Virus record (IMG/VR): IMGVR_UViG_3300046516_001816
Span: 220,984-284,983 of that record
Direction: 5' to 3' (one strand)
DNA from: a virus
Length of the DNA stretch: 64,000 nucleotides
Part shown: positions 3,314-36,799 of the stretch, one piece after another
Numbering within the stretch: position 1 is the stretch's first letter
Layout: each line of letters starts with the position of its first letter
Notes under the pieces: generated by a model
Seen by the model: the letters and a program-made list of their open reading frames with translations, nothing else
Database searches by the model: none
What the model was told of the DNA's origin: nothing
Made by a program: the position numbers and the translations under genes

Positions 3314-3677
3314 TAAGAACCGGCGGCGTTATCGCCTGAAGCTTAAGCAGGATGGTCAGGACTGGATGGACTTTAGCCAAACGTTGCGTTCACGGTTGCC
3401 TGCTGGTCTAGCCCGCATCAAAAGACAGGCGGACGGCGCCATGGAGATTGACTTCCCGCTCAGTACGTCAGACGACAGCACCAACCCCAACAACTGTCTG
3501 ACCTGTGACCATCACCAAAACCCCGACGGCGGGCACTGCTATATGTTCCGTGACGCCCCCACGGAAGTCTGCATGCAGCACACGGGTCGCCAGATGCCGG
3601 GCTTCTTGAAGGAGTTCTACGCTGACATGATGCCTCGGCTTCCGGATGACCAGTGGAAGGTGTTGTTCAAGGGTTAA
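3276..3677 (+). CDS. unknown protein with basic N-terminal tag and Cys/His cluster
   Basis: 133 residues from the ATG at 3276, which has AAGGAAAA just upstream. It overlaps the previous gene by 38 bases in another frame. The basic N-terminal tag resembles the preceding protein's. A central segment has CLTCDHH, then GGHC, then EVCMQH, so several Cys and His could bind a metal such as zinc (inference). No known zinc-finger class is matched exactly. Confidence 0.65.
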   Translation: MLSSQVKARIARNKNRRRYRLKLKQDGQDWMDFSQTLRSRLPAGLARIKRQADGAMEIDFPLSTSDDSTNPNNCLTCDHHQNPDGGHCYMFRDAPTEVCMQHTGRQMPGFLKEFYADMMPRLPDDQWKVLFKG

Positions 3678-3713
3678 GCTGTTCTTTCAATTAAACTAAA
3701 CCAAGGAAACAGA

Positions 3714-24790: not shown

Positions 24791-24843
24791 GGTTAACAAA
24801 GCCCCAGTAGTCTCTTTTTAACTGCAAAAGGTTGGGATCACTC

Positions 24844-27054
24844 ATGACCGCACTGTTCCAAAACAAGAGCCGCATCGGCTCGCAACCGGCGACTCAGCTG
24901 GACAAGCTGGTGGGCTCGCTGCGTGAAGAAATGAACGGCCACGGTGCCGCATTCGCAGACCGCCACATCTCGAAGGCAGCCCTGTCGCTCGAATCGATCG
25001 ACGCATCGCTTGCCCGCGAACTCGAAGGCTCGCTCTCGCAGCTGAACTCCGCCCTCGAAGGCATCGTCAACGAGCACGGCCTGTCGGGTGACCTGACGGC
25101 GTCGCAACGTGACGCAGCTCTGGCTGCCATGGCCATGACCGGCGACATGGGCTCGTTCCTGCACGGCCAGATCAAGCACGACATGGTCAGCACGGAATCG
25201 ATGAAGTTCATCACCGTCGGTGGCGAAGACCACATGTACGAGCGTGTCAAGCCGGCACTCGAAGCGTACGACGAGAAGGAAAACAAGAACGCGGTGGTGT
25301 ACTCCGTCGCGTACAACTTGCAAGCTGCACGCCAGGACGAATTCGGCGAAGCCTTCTACCCGACCGTCGTCGTGACGCCGGACCAAGTGGGCTACACGGT
25401 TTCGATCCGCCTGATCGAAGTGTACAACGAGCCGAAGCGCGCAATCAGCGGCGCTCCCTCGCAGAACTTCGGCCGCAAGAACATCGTGCAAGCCGTGATC
25501 GATCCGTCGATCCTGCGCAACGACCAAACGAAGATCGTTCCGGTCTATCGCACGGAAAGCGCACCGTACTTCGTGACGAACGCGGCCGTCGAGCCGTACA
25601 ACGTCATGATGACGGACAACACGTCGGTCCTGACCGCACCGCTGGCAGTGGGCCAGAAGTTCTCGCTGCTCGGCCTGTCGCAAACGGAAGCGCTGCTCGA
25701 AACGGGTATCCTCGACGTCACCGACGCCATCGACAGCTCGATCTACCTGTCGGCTGTGTACGTCCAGTTCACGACCGGTGGCGCAACGCCGACCGTGGAA
25801 ACGGTGAAGTTCAACACGCGTCAACTGCCGCTCGCGTCGTTCAACTACGCACAGCAGAACGTCTACCGTCAGATGAACCTCCAGTTCAAGACGGAAACGC
25901 TGCTCATCGGCGCGAACACGGTTCAAGCTGACGGCGCTGCATCGACGATCCTCGCACCGATCGTGTCGGGCGACTACGAAGCGCGTTTCGGCTTCTCGAT
26001 GTTCGGTTCGGTGAACCTCGAACTCGGCGACACCGAAATCAACGCATCGAACGTCGGCGTGAACACGATCAAGAATTCGAGCGATCAGTCGCTGGATCTG
26101 ACGACGGGCACGGGCGCGACGCTGGCTGCGCTGTTCGCAGGCGCGAAGGTCGTGGGTTACGACCTGGAAGCTCATCGTACCAACAGCAACCGTCGTCAAC
26201 GCGGCCAGCTGCTGAACACGAACTTCTACAACCAGATCTACACGGTGCCGCTGCTGGCTCCGATCTCGATTCCGCGTCCGATGGCTGTGGGCGATTCGAA
26301 CGACTCGAGCGATCTGGCTTCGCTGATCACGGCAACGCGTATCCGTACGTCGAACGCCGCAGTCGACGCCATCTTCACGATGCAAGACCTGCTCGCGGAA
26401 ACGACGTCGGCGCTGAACACCGGTGCTGCTCCGAATGCTGCTGCCGACACCCCGGAAATCCTGGGCGTGACGCGCTTCATCATTCAGCCGGCGTACATGA
26501 CGAAGAACCTGGCAATCGACACGCAGACGGACAGCCTCTCGGCTCACCAACGCGCGGCCGACATCCAAGCTTCGCTCATCAACTGCCTGCGCGACATGGC
26601 GTACACGCTGTACGTGCAATCGGGCTACAAGGCAGCTGCGGACGCACTCGCAGGTGGCGTGGGTCCGGTGCCGACGGTCATCATCGGTACGGATCCGTAC
26701 ATCGCGCGTTACCTGATGGTGACGGGCGACCTGCGTACGCTGGGTGGTCAGTTCGACGTGAAGATCGTGTCGACGCTGAACGAACGCATGACGGGCAAGA
26801 TCGTGATGAGCTTCGGCGACTTCTCGAACGAGCGCGCTGGCGTGCCCAACCCGCTGCACTTCGGTAACATGGCATGGAAGCCGGAAGTCACGGTCGTCCT
26901 GCCGATGATCCGCAACGGCGCACAATCGAAGGAACTCACGGTCCAGCCGTCGTTCCTGCACGTCACGAACCTGCCGGTTCTCGGCGTGGTCAACGTCTCC
27001 GGTATCAGCAACATTGCGTACAGCAAGGTGCCGGTCAACTTCCATACCGTTTAA
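24844..27054 (+). CDS. major capsid protein
   Basis: 736 residues from ATG 24844 (a TTG at 24832 is less likely). Size, extremely biased codon choice (a sign of very high expression) and position fit a phiKZ-like HK97-fold major capsid protein. The first 118 residues are helical and Ser/Ala/Glu-rich and could be a scaffolding domain removed by a prohead protease; STE|S at 116-119 and SLE|S at 48-51 match the S-x-E type cleavage site known in such phages. An internal domain at about 271-465 is duplicated in the 33210 gene. Confidence 0.8.
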   Translation: MTALFQNKSRIGSQPATQLDKLVGSLREEMNGHGAAFADRHISKAALSLESIDASLARELEGSLSQLNSALEGIVNEHGLSGDLTASQRDAALAAMAMTGDMGSFLHGQIKHDMVSTESMKFITVGGEDHMYERVKPALEAYDEKENKNAVVYSVAYNLQAARQDEFGEAFYPTVVVTPDQVGYTVSIRLIEVYNEPKRAISGAPSQNFGRKNIVQAVIDPSILRNDQTKIVPVYRTESAPYFVTNAAVEPYNVMMTDNTSVLTAPLAVGQKFSLLGLSQTEALLETGILDVTDAIDSSIYLSAVYVQFTTGGATPTVETVKFNTRQLPLASFNYAQQNVYRQMNLQFKTETLLIGANTVQADGAASTILAPIVSGDYEARFGFSMFGSVNLELGDTEINASNVGVNTIKNSSDQSLDLTTGTGATLAALFAGAKVVGYDLEAHRTNSNRRQRGQLLNTNFYNQIYTVPLLAPISIPRPMAVGDSNDSSDLASLITATRIRTSNAAVDAIFTMQDLLAETTSALNTGAAPNAAADTPEILGVTRFIIQPAYMTKNLAIDTQTDSLSAHQRAADIQASLINCLRDMAYTLYVQSGYKAAADALAGGVGPVPTVIIGTDPYIARYLMVTGDLRTLGGQFDVKIVSTLNERMTGKIVMSFGDFSNERAGVPNPLHFGNMAWKPEVTVVLPMIRNGAQSKELTVQPSFLHVTNLPVLGVVNVSGISNIAYSKVPVNFHTV

Positions 27055-27062
27055 CGACGGAG

Positions 27063-27140
27063 TGGAAAAGTGAAAGGGTGAGTGATTCGCAGTGGCTCGC
27101 TACACGGGAGTCGCTGCCCTTTCACAGTAGAATCAGACGT
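27063..27140 (+). other. structured 3' untranslated region of the major capsid gene
   Basis: GTGAAAGGG (27070-27078) pairs perfectly with CCCTTTCAC (27117-27125), with GCAG/CTGC-type pairs inside. It lies between the capsid stop and the terminator at 27153, so the capsid mRNA would end in two stacked structures, possibly stabilising it. Confidence 0.45.
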
Positions 27141-30209: not shown

Positions 30210-32264
30210 ATGTACCAGCAACAACTCCCCTTCAGCCCGGATCAACTGCAACAAGGGTTCCTCCAGGGTATTGGGCCGGGCTGTCCCCCGTTCGTTCCGC
30301 AGCTCACGGGTATCCAGCCGTGGTTGCAGAACTACGTACCGGCCATCGCAGGTTATGTCGCCGCGGAGATTCAGAATCAGGCGGAAAAGAATCACTTGCG
30401 TCGGTTCTTCTTCAATATGTTCGGTCGCAACAACTTCGCCAACGAGGACTATATCTCGGTGGTGCAGGCCGCAGCCGACTATCTTCAGTCGCAAGTCGCA
30501 CAGAACCCCAATGTGCGGATTGAGGCGATGATCGATCAGATCGTGCCGCAGACGGTGGAATTGTTCACGTCGCAGATGACGCGTGCCTTTCCGCAGCTGA
30601 ACGCGTATCTCACGCCGAACATGCAGTACAGTGTGTCGCAACAACACGCTGCGTTCGATAACGTGAAGATGCAGATCGAGCGCTTCAAGGGCGGGATGCA
30701 GGCGCCCATGGGAATGCAGCCTCCGATGGGGATGGCGGCGCCCCAGCAAGGCATGATGATGATGCAGCCGACGGGCTATCAGCAGCCGGGCGCGATGATG
30801 CGTGGCGATCCGCGTCTGGGGGGCAATCCGGGCAGTCTCGGGGTGAGCCTCACGGGTCCGGTCACGAGCCTCGCACCGCAAGGTGTGGCGATGGCACCCA
30901 ATCCGCAAGGCAACAGCATGGCGGCCACGAGCCGTTGGGCCATGCCGGATTTGTCGACCCCGCCGGTGCGCACGATCTCGATCGCCCAGCAGGAACAGCA
31001 ACAAGATTCGGGCAATGTGCATATTGCACGCAGCGCGATGCCGGTCCAAAGCACTACCAATCAAACCACGGAGGCCAGCAGTATGAATACCCCGGTACAA
31101 GAACAGGCAGCGCCGCAGGAAGGTCCGATCGAGCCGCTGGCCACGACGTCGCTGAAATGGAAGCGTAGCGCCATTCAGCCGTATTTCCCGGCTTGGGATC
31201 CCCAGCAACAGGATCTGTATTTGCAACGCTTGGCCACCGGCGAGGTGGTGGTCAAGATGAAGGTGAAACAAAAAGGAGCGGAAGTGGAGTACGATCGTCA
31301 CAAAATCCCGAGCGTGTTCGGACCGGCCTTGCCGACGCTCGACCTGAGCAACACGGCGAAGACCCTGGAAATCGTGCAAAAGGGACTCACCGAAATCGAA
31401 CAGGAAAAGAAGGAACGCCTGGAATCGGTGGAACCGTCGTTCAGCACGCGCGTGAATCCGAACTGGTATGTCGATGTGTCGCCCGAGATGGTCTGGTTGA
31501 CGGGTTCGGTGAACTGGCTCGCGTCGATGGAAAACGGCAAGGTGCCCGACATCTATCGTCAGTACGGTCAGGTCGTCGAGATGATCGTCGGCACGGAAAA
31601 CGAAGACAACTACATCGAGTCGTTCCGCGATGCAGGGACCTTCGTGAACCTGCATCGCATGTTGAACGAAACCCAGGGCAAATGCAGCACCCAGCTCTGG
31701 TATCGTCTCAACGATCGGATCACGGAACTGGTGAACCGGGCCCTCGAATTCAACCTCTCGCTCACGGGTCTGACGATCGACTCGTTTGCGAACGACGGCT
31801 TGGATATCATCGAGTATCTGGGCAACCACTACGGTGATACGGTCAAGGGCGCGTTCTTGCACAACCAGGCGTATCTGATTCGCAGCATCTTCGAATCGAT
31901 CTCGCAGGAAAATGCTGACGCGCTCGACGGCAACTTCATCCCGCATCCGGAAGAAGGCGCCGAAGTCGACCCCGAAGCGAAGCCGCCGGTGTTCACGCAT
32001 CTGGTGTCCAACGGCAGCTTCACCTTCCTCAACTGCCTGGCACACGAACTGTCGCTGGAATTCGACAAGGATCACCCGGCGCTCCTGACGGACAGACTCA
32101 CCCCGGTCTTGTATCGTCTGGCCAAGGGCATCATCGAGGACGCCAAGAGCTACACGGGTGCCACCATCGGGCGTCATTTCGTCCAGACGCTCGACGGTCA
32201 CATCCTCGAAGTCGACACCGCGTTCCTGGGTGAAGAAGCGTACCTCGTACGCAAGCTGAAGTAG
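30210..32264 (+). CDS. large protein with Met/Gln/Gly/Pro-rich disordered linker
   Basis: 684 residues. A helical N-terminal domain (about 1-155), a low-complexity linker of about 170 residues with Met-Gln-Pro-Gly repeats (GMQAPMGMQPPMGMAAPQQG is typical), and a C-terminal domain (about 340-684). TAAACCAAGGAAAACAAACGTC precedes the ATG. Such linkers can drive condensation or link scaffold-like domains. Function unknown; the position among head genes suggests virion assembly. Confidence 0.65.
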   Translation: MYQQQLPFSPDQLQQGFLQGIGPGCPPFVPQLTGIQPWLQNYVPAIAGYVAAEIQNQAEKNHLRRFFFNMFGRNNFANEDYISVVQAAADYLQSQVAQNPNVRIEAMIDQIVPQTVELFTSQMTRAFPQLNAYLTPNMQYSVSQQHAAFDNVKMQIERFKGGMQAPMGMQPPMGMAAPQQGMMMMQPTGYQQPGAMMRGDPRLGGNPGSLGVSLTGPVTSLAPQGVAMAPNPQGNSMAATSRWAMPDLSTPPVRTISIAQQEQQQDSGNVHIARSAMPVQSTTNQTTEASSMNTPVQEQAAPQEGPIEPLATTSLKWKRSAIQPYFPAWDPQQQDLYLQRLATGEVVVKMKVKQKGAEVEYDRHKIPSVFGPALPTLDLSNTAKTLEIVQKGLTEIEQEKKERLESVEPSFSTRVNPNWYVDVSPEMVWLTGSVNWLASMENGKVPDIYRQYGQVVEMIVGTENEDNYIESFRDAGTFVNLHRMLNETQGKCSTQLWYRLNDRITELVNRALEFNLSLTGLTIDSFANDGLDIIEYLGNHYGDTVKGAFLHNQAYLIRSIFESISQENADALDGNFIPHPEEGAEVDPEAKPPVFTHLVSNGSFTFLNCLAHELSLEFDKDHPALLTDRLTPVLYRLAKGIIEDAKSYTGATIGRHFVQTLDGHILEVDTAFLGEEAYLVRKLK

Positions 32265-32342: not shown

Positions 32343-32765
32343 ATGACGACGCAAAAAGATCCGCTCGAAGTCATCGTGCAAGGTGGTGACGTCGAAGCTA
32401 ACACGCTCGTCTTCGGAGTGGTTCAGCACGCGCTGGATAACGCCGGATTCACGGACGTGTCGGTGCATTCGCCGCAAGGTGATGTGCCGTGCGATGTGGA
32501 AGAAGTCCCGACCCTGCTGGACGTCGTGCGCGCCAACCGACCGCACCTGTTCGATACGCCGATCCGTGTCGAGCAACGCGCGCTGGGTGAAGACGTGCTG
32601 GCAATGTCCACGGACGATCCGGGCGCGATTGGCCTGGCGAAGGTAGTCTACGGCGGTGGGCTGGAAGAAGCGGGTGTTGTGGCCACGGTCGAAGCAGAAG
32701 TACTCCAAGCGATGGAGCGCGATGACTTTGCCGATCCGGTGCAAGACGAAGACGTCGCCTATTAA
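32343..32765 (+). CDS. small acidic protein, 140 aa
   Basis: Strongly acidic with few Lys/Arg, especially in its C-terminal third (ERDDFADPVQDEDVAY). Soluble. Acidic small phage proteins sometimes mimic DNA or bind host enzymes, but nothing specific is visible. It is followed at 21 bases by another small acidic protein. Confidence 0.6.
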   Translation: MTTQKDPLEVIVQGGDVEANTLVFGVVQHALDNAGFTDVSVHSPQGDVPCDVEEVPTLLDVVRANRPHLFDTPIRVEQRALGEDVLAMSTDDPGAIGLAKVVYGGGLEEAGVVATVEAEVLQAMERDDFADPVQDEDVAY

Positions 32766-33125: not shown

Positions 33126-33148
33126 GTTTGCCGCGGTCCTTTGATTCG

Positions 33149-33180
33149 AGGAGGCTTCGGCCTCCTTTTTCTTTTATGCT
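33149..33180 (+). terminator. TTCG terminator with T run and TTTTATGC tail
   Basis: AGGAGGC-TTCG-GCCTCCT, TTTTCTTTTATGCTGG. It combines a classical T run with the TATGC tail. Confidence 0.8.
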
Positions 33181-33209: not shown

Positions 33210-33803
33210 ATGAAAATCGTTCCCTTCTATACGCCTGAAGTCGCCAAGTATTTCTCCGAGTACGGCCCCGTGATGACCGTACCGCGCGGGCTGCAACTCT
33301 ATCAAACCAAGCTGCTACGGCCCGACGTAGCGATCCCGCTGCTGCACCTGGGGGAATCCACGGCGCTGCTGGAAACGTCGATTCTCGACACGACCGATTA
33401 TATCCAGATGGATCCGGCGCCGGCGGTCGACGGGCTGCTCTTCCGTATCATCAAGGAAGGCGAGCCGGACGAACTGTTTTATCAGGAGATCGACGAAACC
33501 GATCACCTCTCGGGACGCTTCCGACCGAATCCGGATGATTATTCGGTGGCCTTGCTGCATACCGACGTCAGCATCGTCCTGCACCGGGTGAACGAAGACA
33601 GCACGCTGGCGATTGCACAAATCAAGGGCACGTTCTTCGCCGATATGGCCACGGTCGAGCTCAAGGGGCGGGTAATCATCAAGGATGAAGACTTCGCCGA
33701 CGGCGTGGAGCTCGTGGGGTATTCTATCGATACGCATCGCTTCAATAGCAAGAGCAAACCTGCCAAGCATCAGATCACACCGACGCGTTACAAGAAGATT
33801 TAA
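33210..33803 (+). CDS. stand-alone paralogue of an internal major-capsid domain
   Basis: 197 residues from ATG 33210 (TTTAAACCAAGGTTCGTC). Residues about 46-68 (LLHLGESTALLETSILDTTD) align with the MCP segment LLGLSQTEALLETGILDVTD. The end (LVGYSIDTHRFNS then YKKI) aligns with MCP VVGYDLEAHRTNS and YNQI, with similar spacing overall. It therefore looks like a detached copy of MCP residues of about 271-465. It could be a minor capsid, vertex or decoration protein. The homology is seen; the role is inference. Confidence 0.7.
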   Translation: MKIVPFYTPEVAKYFSEYGPVMTVPRGLQLYQTKLLRPDVAIPLLHLGESTALLETSILDTTDYIQMDPAPAVDGLLFRIIKEGEPDELFYQEIDETDHLSGRFRPNPDDYSVALLHTDVSIVLHRVNEDSTLAIAQIKGTFFADMATVELKGRVIIKDEDFADGVELVGYSIDTHRFNSKSKPAKHQITPTRYKKI

Positions 33804-33880: not shown

Positions 33881-36799
33881 TTAGGACTTGGGTTGCTGAT
33901 CCTTGTCCTGGTTCTCGTCCTCTTCCCCTTCCTTCGGCTGCGCGTTAGCGTCGGCGCCAGGTGCTGCATTCTGGTCGGCGTTATCGCTCGGTGCCGCTTC
34001 GCCCGGGGCTGCGGGCATCGTATCACCCTGACCGTTGCCCGTATCGAGCTCGGGTGCGTCAAACCCGGTCTGATCTCCAAACCCACCACCGCTGTTCTCA
34101 TCGGTGCCCGACGTGTCCGTGGAACCGAAGTCCGTGCTACCCCCTGCGGCTGTGGTGGTGAGCTTGCCCTCGGTGTCCTTGAGCTCCTCGTTGGATTTGT
34201 TGGTGATCGAGACCAGATCCTTGAAGAACTCACCAAACGTCTTCTGCAACGTTTCGATGTGTTCCGATTGGATCTTGAAGACGTCCACCGCCGGCTTGCC
34301 GTCTTCGGTTTTCGTCGTGAGCTGCGAGAGTTCCGTCATCATGCCGTTCTCGCTCATCCATTGACGCAAGAAGTAGGCTTTCGCCACTTCCTTGAGCACC
34401 GTGATCTTCTCGGCGACATTGCCACCCGTATCCGGCGTGAAGAACTTCTCCGACAGCCAGGCATCGAGCGCCATGTCCAGGGCTTCACTGTAACTCTTGA
34501 ATGCGGCGAACTGGTTTTCCAGTGTCGTCGAATTTGGACGCGGCAGGGTCACTGTCACGTTCATCAAGAATTCATTGAGGACCTGGTTGACGATGTACTC
34601 CTGATCATCCTCGCTCAGGTTGCCGGTGCCGTCCGAGTTATCGCTGCGCTTTTCGTCGATGATCGGCACACCCGTGTTGTTGCCGTAGTTGCGCGGATCA
34701 CTTGACTTCCTTTTCGCGTTCTTCTTCTCGTCCTTCGTGATGGTGAGTTTCTTGAAGTTCTCACGGAGAATCTCTTTCAAGTCCTCCACGAGCTCTTCCG
34801 AATTCATCGCGTGCTGACGCATATGCGTGGCCAGCTGCGGATGGAACTCGTCCTGAATCTGCATCACGCGCTTGGAGAGCAGGATGTTGTTGGTCACCAC
34901 CGAGGTCGCCAACTCCGGCTGGTAGGCCGCGTCAATCGTTTCCGGCGGCACACCCGTCTTCATGATCGCCCGCTTGCGCAGGTTATCTTCAAGCTCGGTG
35001 TCGGGCTTGGTGTACTGGCTGTTCTTCTCGCCGAAGTCAATCGACACGTCCGGCATGCCCGGGTGCCCTTCGTACGTGAATTCAAAGCCTGCGCGCGTAA
35101 TGAAGTCCACCACTTCAGCCGGCGAATTCACCCCCAGCGGCAAGAAGTTCTGACGGCTGCGGATGATTTCATGCATCGCCGTCTCAAGCGTCTTCTCCGG
35201 ATTGGCGTCATCCTCGTCGAACTTGAGTTTGACTTCCGTGCGACCGATCGAGTTCTTGATGCCGGCCATCACGTTGGCAAACAGCAGCATCGAGCGCAGA
35301 CTGTTCAGGATCTTCAGCTCGTCGAGCAACGACTCCCCGATGCCATCCTTATTGAAGCGGAAGGCAAAGTACGTCATGAACTCCGCCGGGATAAAGAGCA
35401 ACTGCGTATGCTGACGGGCCAAGGCCCGTGCAAACATAATGCGGTAGATCTCTTCACGCTTGCCGATCGCCACGCTGTTGCCATACGGTCCGTTGCGCAG
35501 ACGGGCGAGCAAGTCCTGCTCCACCATGTCCCCGTAGACTCGCGACGAGTAATCGAGGTGGTCCCGGTTATGGACATCAAAGCCTTCCATCTGGCTTTTG
35601 ACCTTGGTGAGCATCGCACTGGGGAAGCTCCCCGACGTCGACATCCGTTGCTGCATCTGCTGGTAGTGGTCGGTGATCTGTTGACGCACCACCGGATGGC
35701 CGTCCTGATCGAGCAGCACAAAGAAGCCGATCTGGTTTTGCGGCGTGCCCGGCACGTGCACCGGAATGATGGCTTCCGAAGGGATATGCATCACCATCGG
35801 GTTGCCCACCATGCGACGATCCAGCTGCTCGTGGGTTTTGACAGTCGCCACCGGCTGGTAATTAAACCGGCGGTTGCGATACAGCAAGCCCGTGAGTTCC
35901 CGATCGTTCATCTTCTGCATCGGGCTATTGTTACCCACCCCCAGCGATTCCAACGCGGACGAGCCCCAGGCCTTGAGCGTCTTATGCTCGCGCAGCTTCT
36001 GGTTGATCAGTGGCACCTTGAGCGCGGTCGGATTGTCCGTGACGGTCAAGAACACGTCTTCCTTATTGAGCGGCTTCGAAAAGCTGCTCTCAAAACGCAC
36101 CAGCCCGATCTCCTGCTCGATGGCGATATTTTCGTCATTGAACTGCTCGATCGCCAAACCCGGACCGCGGGCTTCTTCGGTGGGCTTCTTCTTTTGCACC
36201 GGACCCAGCAAACCCACCGGACGGATCGTGCCATCGGGGTTGATATGCTCAGCGAGGTTTTCCATGGCCATGCGCACTTGGCCGTTGATCACTTCGTCGA
36301 CCGAGTTTTCCGGGATCACCGCAATGCCGTAGGAGCCCGTGCGGAACAGCGTGTCGCGCAGGATCTTGGGAATGAGCGGTTTAATCTTATGGACTTGTTC
36401 GAAATGCTGCCGGTAACGGTCGATCATGGCGCCGGCGACGTCGGGGGCCATGAGGCCTTCAGGCGCTGTGTAGGTCAGCTCCAGCGTCATCATGTCCTTG
36501 GGCGAACCCACGGATGACACCAGAATCTGCTGCGACAACTCCATGTCGGGCAAGAGCTGCATGACCGTTTCAGCGTCATTGACGTTTTGCGCGGTCTGTT
36601 CAGCAGCGTTTCGGAAACTGTACAAGTTAGGCTGCACCGGTTCACGGTTGCCCTTATCGTTGTACTGGTTGGGGTGCTGCGACGGAATCAGCTTAGCCAA
36701 AGTGGCGGCTGTACCCGGGTCCTGTCGCACCAATTGCATGACAGGAAATCTTTTACCGCTACCCGCCAATTCAATGGCTTTGTCGTATCCGTTAGACAT
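33881..36799 (-). CDS. portal protein
   Basis: 972 residues. The core around 470-590 has the portal pattern: FIPAEFMTYFAFRF, GIGESLLDELKILNSLRSML, then KNSIGRTEVKLKF, as in the large myovirus portals. It forms the dodecameric ring at one capsid vertex through which DNA is packaged and where the tail joins. The N-terminal part has a barrel-like beta region. The C-terminus is a disordered Gly/Ser/Asp/Gln-rich tail (about 900-972). A good Shine-Dalgarno (AAGAGGTAGC) precedes the ATG. It is transcribed against its neighbours. Confidence 0.75.
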   Translation of the reverse strand: MSNGYDKAIELAGSGKRFPVMQLVRQDPGTAATLAKLIPSQHPNQYNDKGNREPVQPNLYSFRNAAEQTAQNVNDAETVMQLLPDMELSQQILVSSVGSPKDMMTLELTYTAPEGLMAPDVAGAMIDRYRQHFEQVHKIKPLIPKILRDTLFRTGSYGIAVIPENSVDEVINGQVRMAMENLAEHINPDGTIRPVGLLGPVQKKKPTEEARGPGLAIEQFNDENIAIEQEIGLVRFESSFSKPLNKEDVFLTVTDNPTALKVPLINQKLREHKTLKAWGSSALESLGVGNNSPMQKMNDRELTGLLYRNRRFNYQPVATVKTHEQLDRRMVGNPMVMHIPSEAIIPVHVPGTPQNQIGFFVLLDQDGHPVVRQQITDHYQQMQQRMSTSGSFPSAMLTKVKSQMEGFDVHNRDHLDYSSRVYGDMVEQDLLARLRNGPYGNSVAIGKREEIYRIMFARALARQHTQLLFIPAEFMTYFAFRFNKDGIGESLLDELKILNSLRSMLLFANVMAGIKNSIGRTEVKLKFDEDDANPEKTLETAMHEIIRSRQNFLPLGVNSPAEVVDFITRAGFEFTYEGHPGMPDVSIDFGEKNSQYTKPDTELEDNLRKRAIMKTGVPPETIDAAYQPELATSVVTNNILLSKRVMQIQDEFHPQLATHMRQHAMNSEELVEDLKEILRENFKKLTITKDEKKNAKRKSSDPRNYGNNTGVPIIDEKRSDNSDGTGNLSEDDQEYIVNQVLNEFLMNVTVTLPRPNSTTLENQFAAFKSYSEALDMALDAWLSEKFFTPDTGGNVAEKITVLKEVAKAYFLRQWMSENGMMTELSQLTTKTEDGKPAVDVFKIQSEHIETLQKTFGEFFKDLVSITNKSNEELKDTEGKLTTTAAGGSTDFGSTDTSGTDENSGGGFGDQTGFDAPELDTGNGQGDTMPAAPGEAAPSDNADQNAAPGADANAQPKEGEEDENQDKDQQPKS

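Follow-up and report, generated by a model that had tools for sequence, protein, structure and literature searches.

Gp24 of phage T4 is built on the full-length HK97 fold of a major capsid protein (MCP). It is a vertex paralog of the T4 MCP, gp23 (PMC5694885). The MCP of phage phiKp24 was divided by its authors into a triangular body, an arm (residues 89-166) and a hand (residues 167-313); arms and hands link the capsomers in a decoration-like manner, and the capsid was reported to be assembled from the MCP alone (PMC9700779). Our analysis concerns a protein, P0001, whose sequence profile and predicted fold correspond to such an arm and hand encoded by a gene of its own.

The gene belongs to a phiKZ-like jumbo phage represented by a virus record of 285 kb. 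The last 64 kb of this record contain the gene and are referred to below as the window. The relevant features are as follows:

24832..27054, plus strand: MCP gene, proposed parent of P0001 (PF25620 'PhiKZ_MCP', E 3e-185; 740 aa when read from TTG)
25528..26238, plus strand: arm+hand module within the MCP (residues ~233-469), counterpart of P0001 and equivalent of the arm (89-166) and hand (167-313) of phiKp24 gp372
30210-32264, plus strand: JADA homolog, 684 aa (Pa36 gp316; phiKZ gp124), matching PDB 9rp3 (E 1e-7)
32343-32765, plus strand: protein of 140 aa from a small family with several copies, resembling FLC9 gp82-gp85 and gp88
33148..33167, plus strand: terminator-like hairpin (8 pairs, loop TTCG, T-rich tail), from a consensus scan only
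33210..33803, plus strand: P0001, 197 aa, free-standing arm+hand domain of a phiKZ-type MCP, assigned by homology, profile and fold
33881..36799, minus strand: portal protein gene, matching phiKZ gp129 (E 7e-120) and the solved 'Portal Protein gp36'

The open reading frame of P0001 runs from the ATG at 33210 to the stop at 33803 (197 aa). Its GC content at third codon positions (74%) resembles that of the neighbouring genes (58-81%), and the reading frame is real. The window contains, in order, the MCP gene, an ORF of about 390 aa (454 aa if read from the listed GTG at 27082), a polymerase-like ORF (phrog_2943), the JADA homolog, two small ORFs, the hairpin, the P0001 gene and the portal gene. 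The position beside the portal, already proposed in the preliminary description, was confirmed by the two portal matches listed above; the portal and P0001 genes are convergent, with stop codons 77 bp apart. Since the hairpin separates the P0001 gene from the upstream block, this gene probably forms its own transcription unit. Translation of the MCP itself probably begins with the ATG at 24844 rather than with the TTG at 24832, because the MCP of Burkholderia phage FLC9 (53% identity) begins there in the alignment. The 140-aa protein had no match in the PDB; four of its homologs are arranged in tandem in the related locus L087.

JADA is the trigger of the Avs5 defence, and its gene is reported to keep a conserved position 3' of an RNA polymerase-like gene (PMC12931631). 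The homolog in the window occupies this same position. Some bacterial defences, e.g. CapRel and Lit, are triggered by capsid proteins. With a JADA homolog encoded nearby, P0001 might thus be imagined as an MCP decoy that occupies bacterial sensors of capsid proteins; no known sensor has been reported for this module, however, and we consider such a role extremely improbable.

Both motifs on which the preliminary description relied (ALLETxILDxTD and xVGYxxxxHRxNS...YxxI) are present in P0001. In a two-sequence blastp comparison with the window MCP, the N-terminal part of the protein was identical at 27 of 68 positions (40%, E 1e-6) and the C-terminal part at 30% over 33 aa, and the Smith-Waterman score was 83 (maximum of 60 among 2000 shuffles). 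At the level of sequence the pairwise similarity is weak and real. P0001 residues 2-197 aligned in one piece with residues 233-465 of the FLC9 MCP (E 4e-5, database size 1e6). Moreover, an HMM of 18 MCP modules, built without the free-standing copies and run against 698 six-frame ORFs (the window and two other loci) and 1000 shuffles, found P0001 with 27.3 bits (E 2e-7; best shuffle 5.3 bits). Chance similarity was ruled out by the Smith-Waterman and profile shuffles. The start methionine of P0001 coincides with the start of the module (MKIVPFY in P0001, TKIVPVY in the MCP). The alignment with MCP residues of about 271-465, as first proposed, was therefore upheld by blastp and profile in terms of homology, whereas its left boundary had to be moved to residue ~233, so that P0001 is all module to about residue 183. 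Homology is confined to MCP residues ~233-465: the HK97-fold body (P and A domains), the N-arm and the propeptide have no counterpart in P0001.

Against PF25620, P0001 scored 15.7 bits, i.e. under the curated Pfam cut-off of 27 bits; phmmer gave no match in the PDB, and none was obtained in PHROGs at E<=1, phrog_36436 included. Peptide patterns detected no close orthologs in IMG/VR viral contigs or GTDB genomes, and among phage records they retrieved the FLC9 MCP only.

Two AlphaFold2 models were compared with known structures. Model 1 was based on nine free-standing proteins, all MCP sequences being left out (pLDDT 75.7, pTM 0.73), while in model 2 the MCP modules were added (pLDDT 77.9, pTM 0.75). 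For model 1, the phiKp24 MCP (8bfl) and phiKZ gp120 (8y6v) were the sole PDB entries at E<0.001. Superposition with VIA-align 2 placed this model on residues 92-312 of the phiKp24 MCP (Z 18.0, 177 residues, 2.4 A) and on residues 251-468 of phiKZ gp120 (Z 17.3), followed by the MCP of the Staphylococcus jumbo phage S6 (Z 9.7), all other listed matches having Z <5. The superpositions of model 2 agreed with those of model 1, and with both reference MCPs the fold was shared over 172-178 residues (Z 17-18, rmsd 2.2-2.4 A). The modelled likeness to the MCP extends beyond the short motifs, and the preliminary description was not refuted on this point, for which it had named a lack of such similarity as the refuting outcome. 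A bias of the model introduced by MCP sequences was ruled out, as the MCP-free model of nine copies gave the same fold. TRPML and PLpro, which Foldseek ranked after the capsid proteins, and the low VIA-align matches (T-cell receptors and others) were rejected as low-scoring generic similarity. The modelled fold comprises P0001 residues 1-183, the last ~14 residues being of low confidence. Among the capsid chains of phiKZ, in which the minor capsid proteins were judged by fold search, the MCP alone matched the P0001 fold.

The matched limits in phiKp24 (92-312) are those of the published arm and hand, which indicates that P0001 is precisely arm plus hand, without the HK97 body. Together, profile homology and modelled structure show that P0001 is the arm+hand (insertion) domain of a phiKZ-type MCP in detached and diverged form, in agreement with the earlier proposal of a detached MCP domain, and it is predicted to fold alone into the layered beta-sheet module of the MCP. 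P0001 resembles the arm+hand of phiKZ-type MCPs (PF25620; phiKp24 gp372, 8bfl; phiKZ gp120, 8y6v) in fold, boundaries and profile similarity, but it is free-standing, lacks both the HK97 body and the N-terminal propeptide, and is ~40 residues shorter than the module of the window MCP, to which it is 29% identical. With T4 gp24 it shares the status of a separately encoded MCP paralog in the same phage; however, gp24 is full-length and forms pentamers, whereas P0001 consists of the inserted module only and cannot form a capsomer. A parallel with capsid decoration or cement proteins can be drawn through the decoration-like linking role of the parent module (PMC9700779). In the literature searched (partial coverage, without the phiKZ capsid paper) we found no description of detached MCP arm/hand proteins.

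A joint-profile search of 39 records revealed an MCP with the module in all of them and further free-standing copies in some. The copies considered individually, including two probable shortened members of the family, are the following:

Record positions 214775-215317 (L006 10776-11318), 6 kb upstream of the window: second copy in the same phage, 180 aa (PF25620 34 bits)
L075 (IMG/VR): copy of 190 residues, syntenic with P0001 (PF25620 76 bits)
L001 19524-20669: FLC9 gp87, 381 aa (PF25620 58 bits)
FLC9 gp132: free-standing copy, 250 aa
L071 2728-3294: 201phi2-1 gp106, 188 aa, encoded immediately after the chimallin gene gp105
201phi2-1 gp282: free-standing copy, 406 aa
Phabio 274: free-standing copy (PF25620 105 bits)
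Viktualia 496: free-standing copy
L087 18779-19936: copy with a C-terminal extension similar to that of FLC9 gp87
L138 2814-3245: phiKZ gp266 (phrog_16574, unknown function), probable shortened member
L139 2772-3212: PhiPA3 gp326, ortholog of phiKZ gp266 according to its GenBank note, probable shortened member

The PF25620 cut-off (27 bits) was passed by the L075 copy, the second copy of this phage, FLC9 gp87 and Phabio 274. None of the copies in this phage, FLC9, 201phi2-1, Phabio, Viktualia and the IMG/VR jumbo phages carries a protein name. Longer copies were also detected in the IMG/VR loci L086, L087, L088, L090 and L100 and in L091 and L095, and two copies in tandem in L136. Extra N-terminal domains (~110-190 aa) are present in Phabio 274, 201phi2-1 gp282 and Viktualia 496, and an extra C-terminal part (~160 aa) in FLC9 gp87 and the L087 copy; these extra domains gave no clear family in Pfam or PHROGs. 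In BFVD the same predicted fold was observed in proteins of RP12 (A0A1L7N135), Edwardsiella phage pEt-SU (A0A4D6DWC6, A0A4D6DWR7), 201phi2-1 (B3FIW9) and Phabio (A0A1Y0SWN0), among others, all listed as uncharacterised. The family phrog_36436 (229 aa, unknown function) matches residues 270-455 of the window MCP; the L075 copy matches it (E 2.9e-6), and a 229-aa protein of RP12 shares its predicted fold with P0001. P0001 itself scores with no PHROG. The assignment of phiKZ gp266 and PhiPA3 gp326 is based on scores of 17 and 15 bits, respectively, with one profile (best shuffle 8.5), which fall near shuffle level with another; PhiPA3 gp326 matches the P0001 model also by fold. In Psa21, a match to PF25620 positions 126-202 (269478-269711; L074 about 3479-3712) contains an internal TAG and spans two annotated genes, and is possibly a decaying free-standing copy.

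Comparison with L075, in which the gene order is as in the window and the copy occupies the same slot, revealed uneven divergence: the MCPs are 82% identical, the MCP modules 81% and the portals 74%, while the free-standing proteins share only 30% identity. The L075 copy is closer to the module of its own MCP (43%) than P0001 is to the module of the window MCP (29%). It also retains the junction residues of the MCP (RVNYNRRPRE versus RTNSNRRQRG); these lead the MCP chain back to the body and have no obvious use when detached, which is what one would expect if the copy had been cut out of an MCP. In the close relative L081 (MCP 78% identical) homologs of the 140-aa ORF and of the portal are present and the slot contains no copy, and none was found within the 10-kb flanks in L078 and L092, which are also close relatives. 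The free-standing gene is thus dispensable.

Every MCP in the records searched carries the module, whereas free-standing copies occur sporadically and have diverged. It is therefore simpler to assume that the module broke away from the MCP than the reverse, and we infer that it was set free by segment duplication. The same distribution across the 39 records does not support the earlier suggestion that the protein could be an intermediate in capsid evolution. In the phylogenetic tree, 201phi2-1 gp106 and Phabio 274 group with the MCPs of Pseudomonas phages on starred branches, the remainder forming a weak separate group. The tree therefore favours at least two origins of the free-standing copies, a reading made unsure by long branches; a single origin was not rejected by the AU test (p 0.21).

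Fast divergence and patchy presence, together with the decayed appearance of the Psa21 copy, might suggest that P0001 is a non-functional leftover of an MCP gene duplication. This we regard as very improbable: the reading frames are intact in many phages, including the syntenic copy in L075, the modelled fold is retained, and the ends of the protein fall cleanly on domain edges. Furthermore, dN/dS values of 0.04-0.08 in the well-sampled family formed by the L086, L087, L090 and L100 copies reveal strong purifying selection, so that here selection acts on the function of the protein.

As to what this function may be, we tentatively favour (with a probability of roughly 40%) a substoichiometric minor component that binds the capsid or procapsid. 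A segment of the MCP gene would have been duplicated and then set free as a separate gene, whose product would use the surface of its parent and bind MCP capsomers where the arm or hand of a neighbour would sit. As the parent module grips neighbouring capsomers, the free copy should bind the same capsomer edges. P0001 might then serve, in few copies, as a cap or cement at partner-short sites, e.g. the five hexamer edges turned towards the portal, at a vertex that lacks its pentamer; alternatively, it might act transiently on the procapsid. The preliminary description had proposed that the protein may cap special vertices or decorate hexamers. The homology and fold, with match limits equal to those of the published arm and hand, are in line with such a role, as is the location of the P0001 gene in the head block, with the syntenic L075 copy, and FLC9 gp87 and the L087 and L091 copies in the same neighbourhood. 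The selection for protein function in the L086/L087/L090/L100 family points the same way. On the other hand, the fold is matched in the phiKZ capsid chains by the MCP only, and the phiKp24 capsid was reported as MCP-only. The phiKp24 hand salt-bridge residues, as read off the alignment, are too little conserved in the window MCP to probe the contact surface.

A stable place in the virion is further questioned by the GenBank notes of 201phi2-1, in which gp106 and gp282 carry no mass-spectrometry mark, unlike the MCP, gp277 and gp280 (the last two near gp282). It is also at odds with the location of several copies away from the head genes (FLC9 gp132, 201phi2-1 gp106 and the second copy of this phage), with the dispensability of the gene, and with divergence far faster than that of the parent module (30% versus 81% identity), which is unusual for a lattice contact. 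The missing marks and the fast divergence would also suit a modulator of capsid assembly or docking that is absent from mature particles: a chaperone, a brake or a phage-nucleus adaptor that would bind MCP or procapsids during infection, or a dominant-negative factor directed against the capsids of co-infecting relatives. In the MCP, contact with neighbouring capsomers is made by this very module, the distribution is that of an accessory, patchy, multi-copy gene, and one of the unmarked copies of 201phi2-1 adjoins chimallin. The copy in the window, however, lies in a structural block beside the portal, and the low dN/dS in one family gives no hint of a short-range arms race; we judge this possibility somewhat unlikely.

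It is also conceivable, and slightly less plausible, that the beta-sheet module was exapted for a role unconnected with the capsid (in host take-over, in the nucleus shell, or in binding another ligand), with its fold kept and its MCP-binding surface lost. Many copies reside among small genes of unknown function and not among head genes, as does the second copy of this phage, and some carry the extra N- or C-terminal domains described above. P0001, however, has little beyond the module itself, and the syntenic L075 copy keeps the MCP junction residues.

Whichever way P0001 acts, the finding differs from the known MCP paralogs, which are whole proteins such as T4 gp24, in that the recurrent family described here consists of the lattice-linking module alone. 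Its recurrence shows that the module can be separated from the MCP, with a predicted ability to fold by itself, and that evolution has re-used it. The analysis also provides a fold and an origin for uncharacterized proteins of phiKZ-like phages, among them 201phi2-1 gp106 and probably phiKZ gp266 and PhiPA3 gp326. These three phages serve as laboratory models, and 201phi2-1 forms a phage nucleus. A broader and quite speculative proposal is that jumbo phages have repeatedly freed the MCP arm+hand as a capsid-aimed accessory, directed either at special sites of their own capsids (the portal vertex) or at poisoning or redirecting the assembly of co-infecting relatives; if true, the MCP itself would be the source of a new class of capsid-targeting proteins. 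The family opens a directly testable question, namely whether an arm and hand alone can bind, cap or disturb the capsids of jumbo phages.
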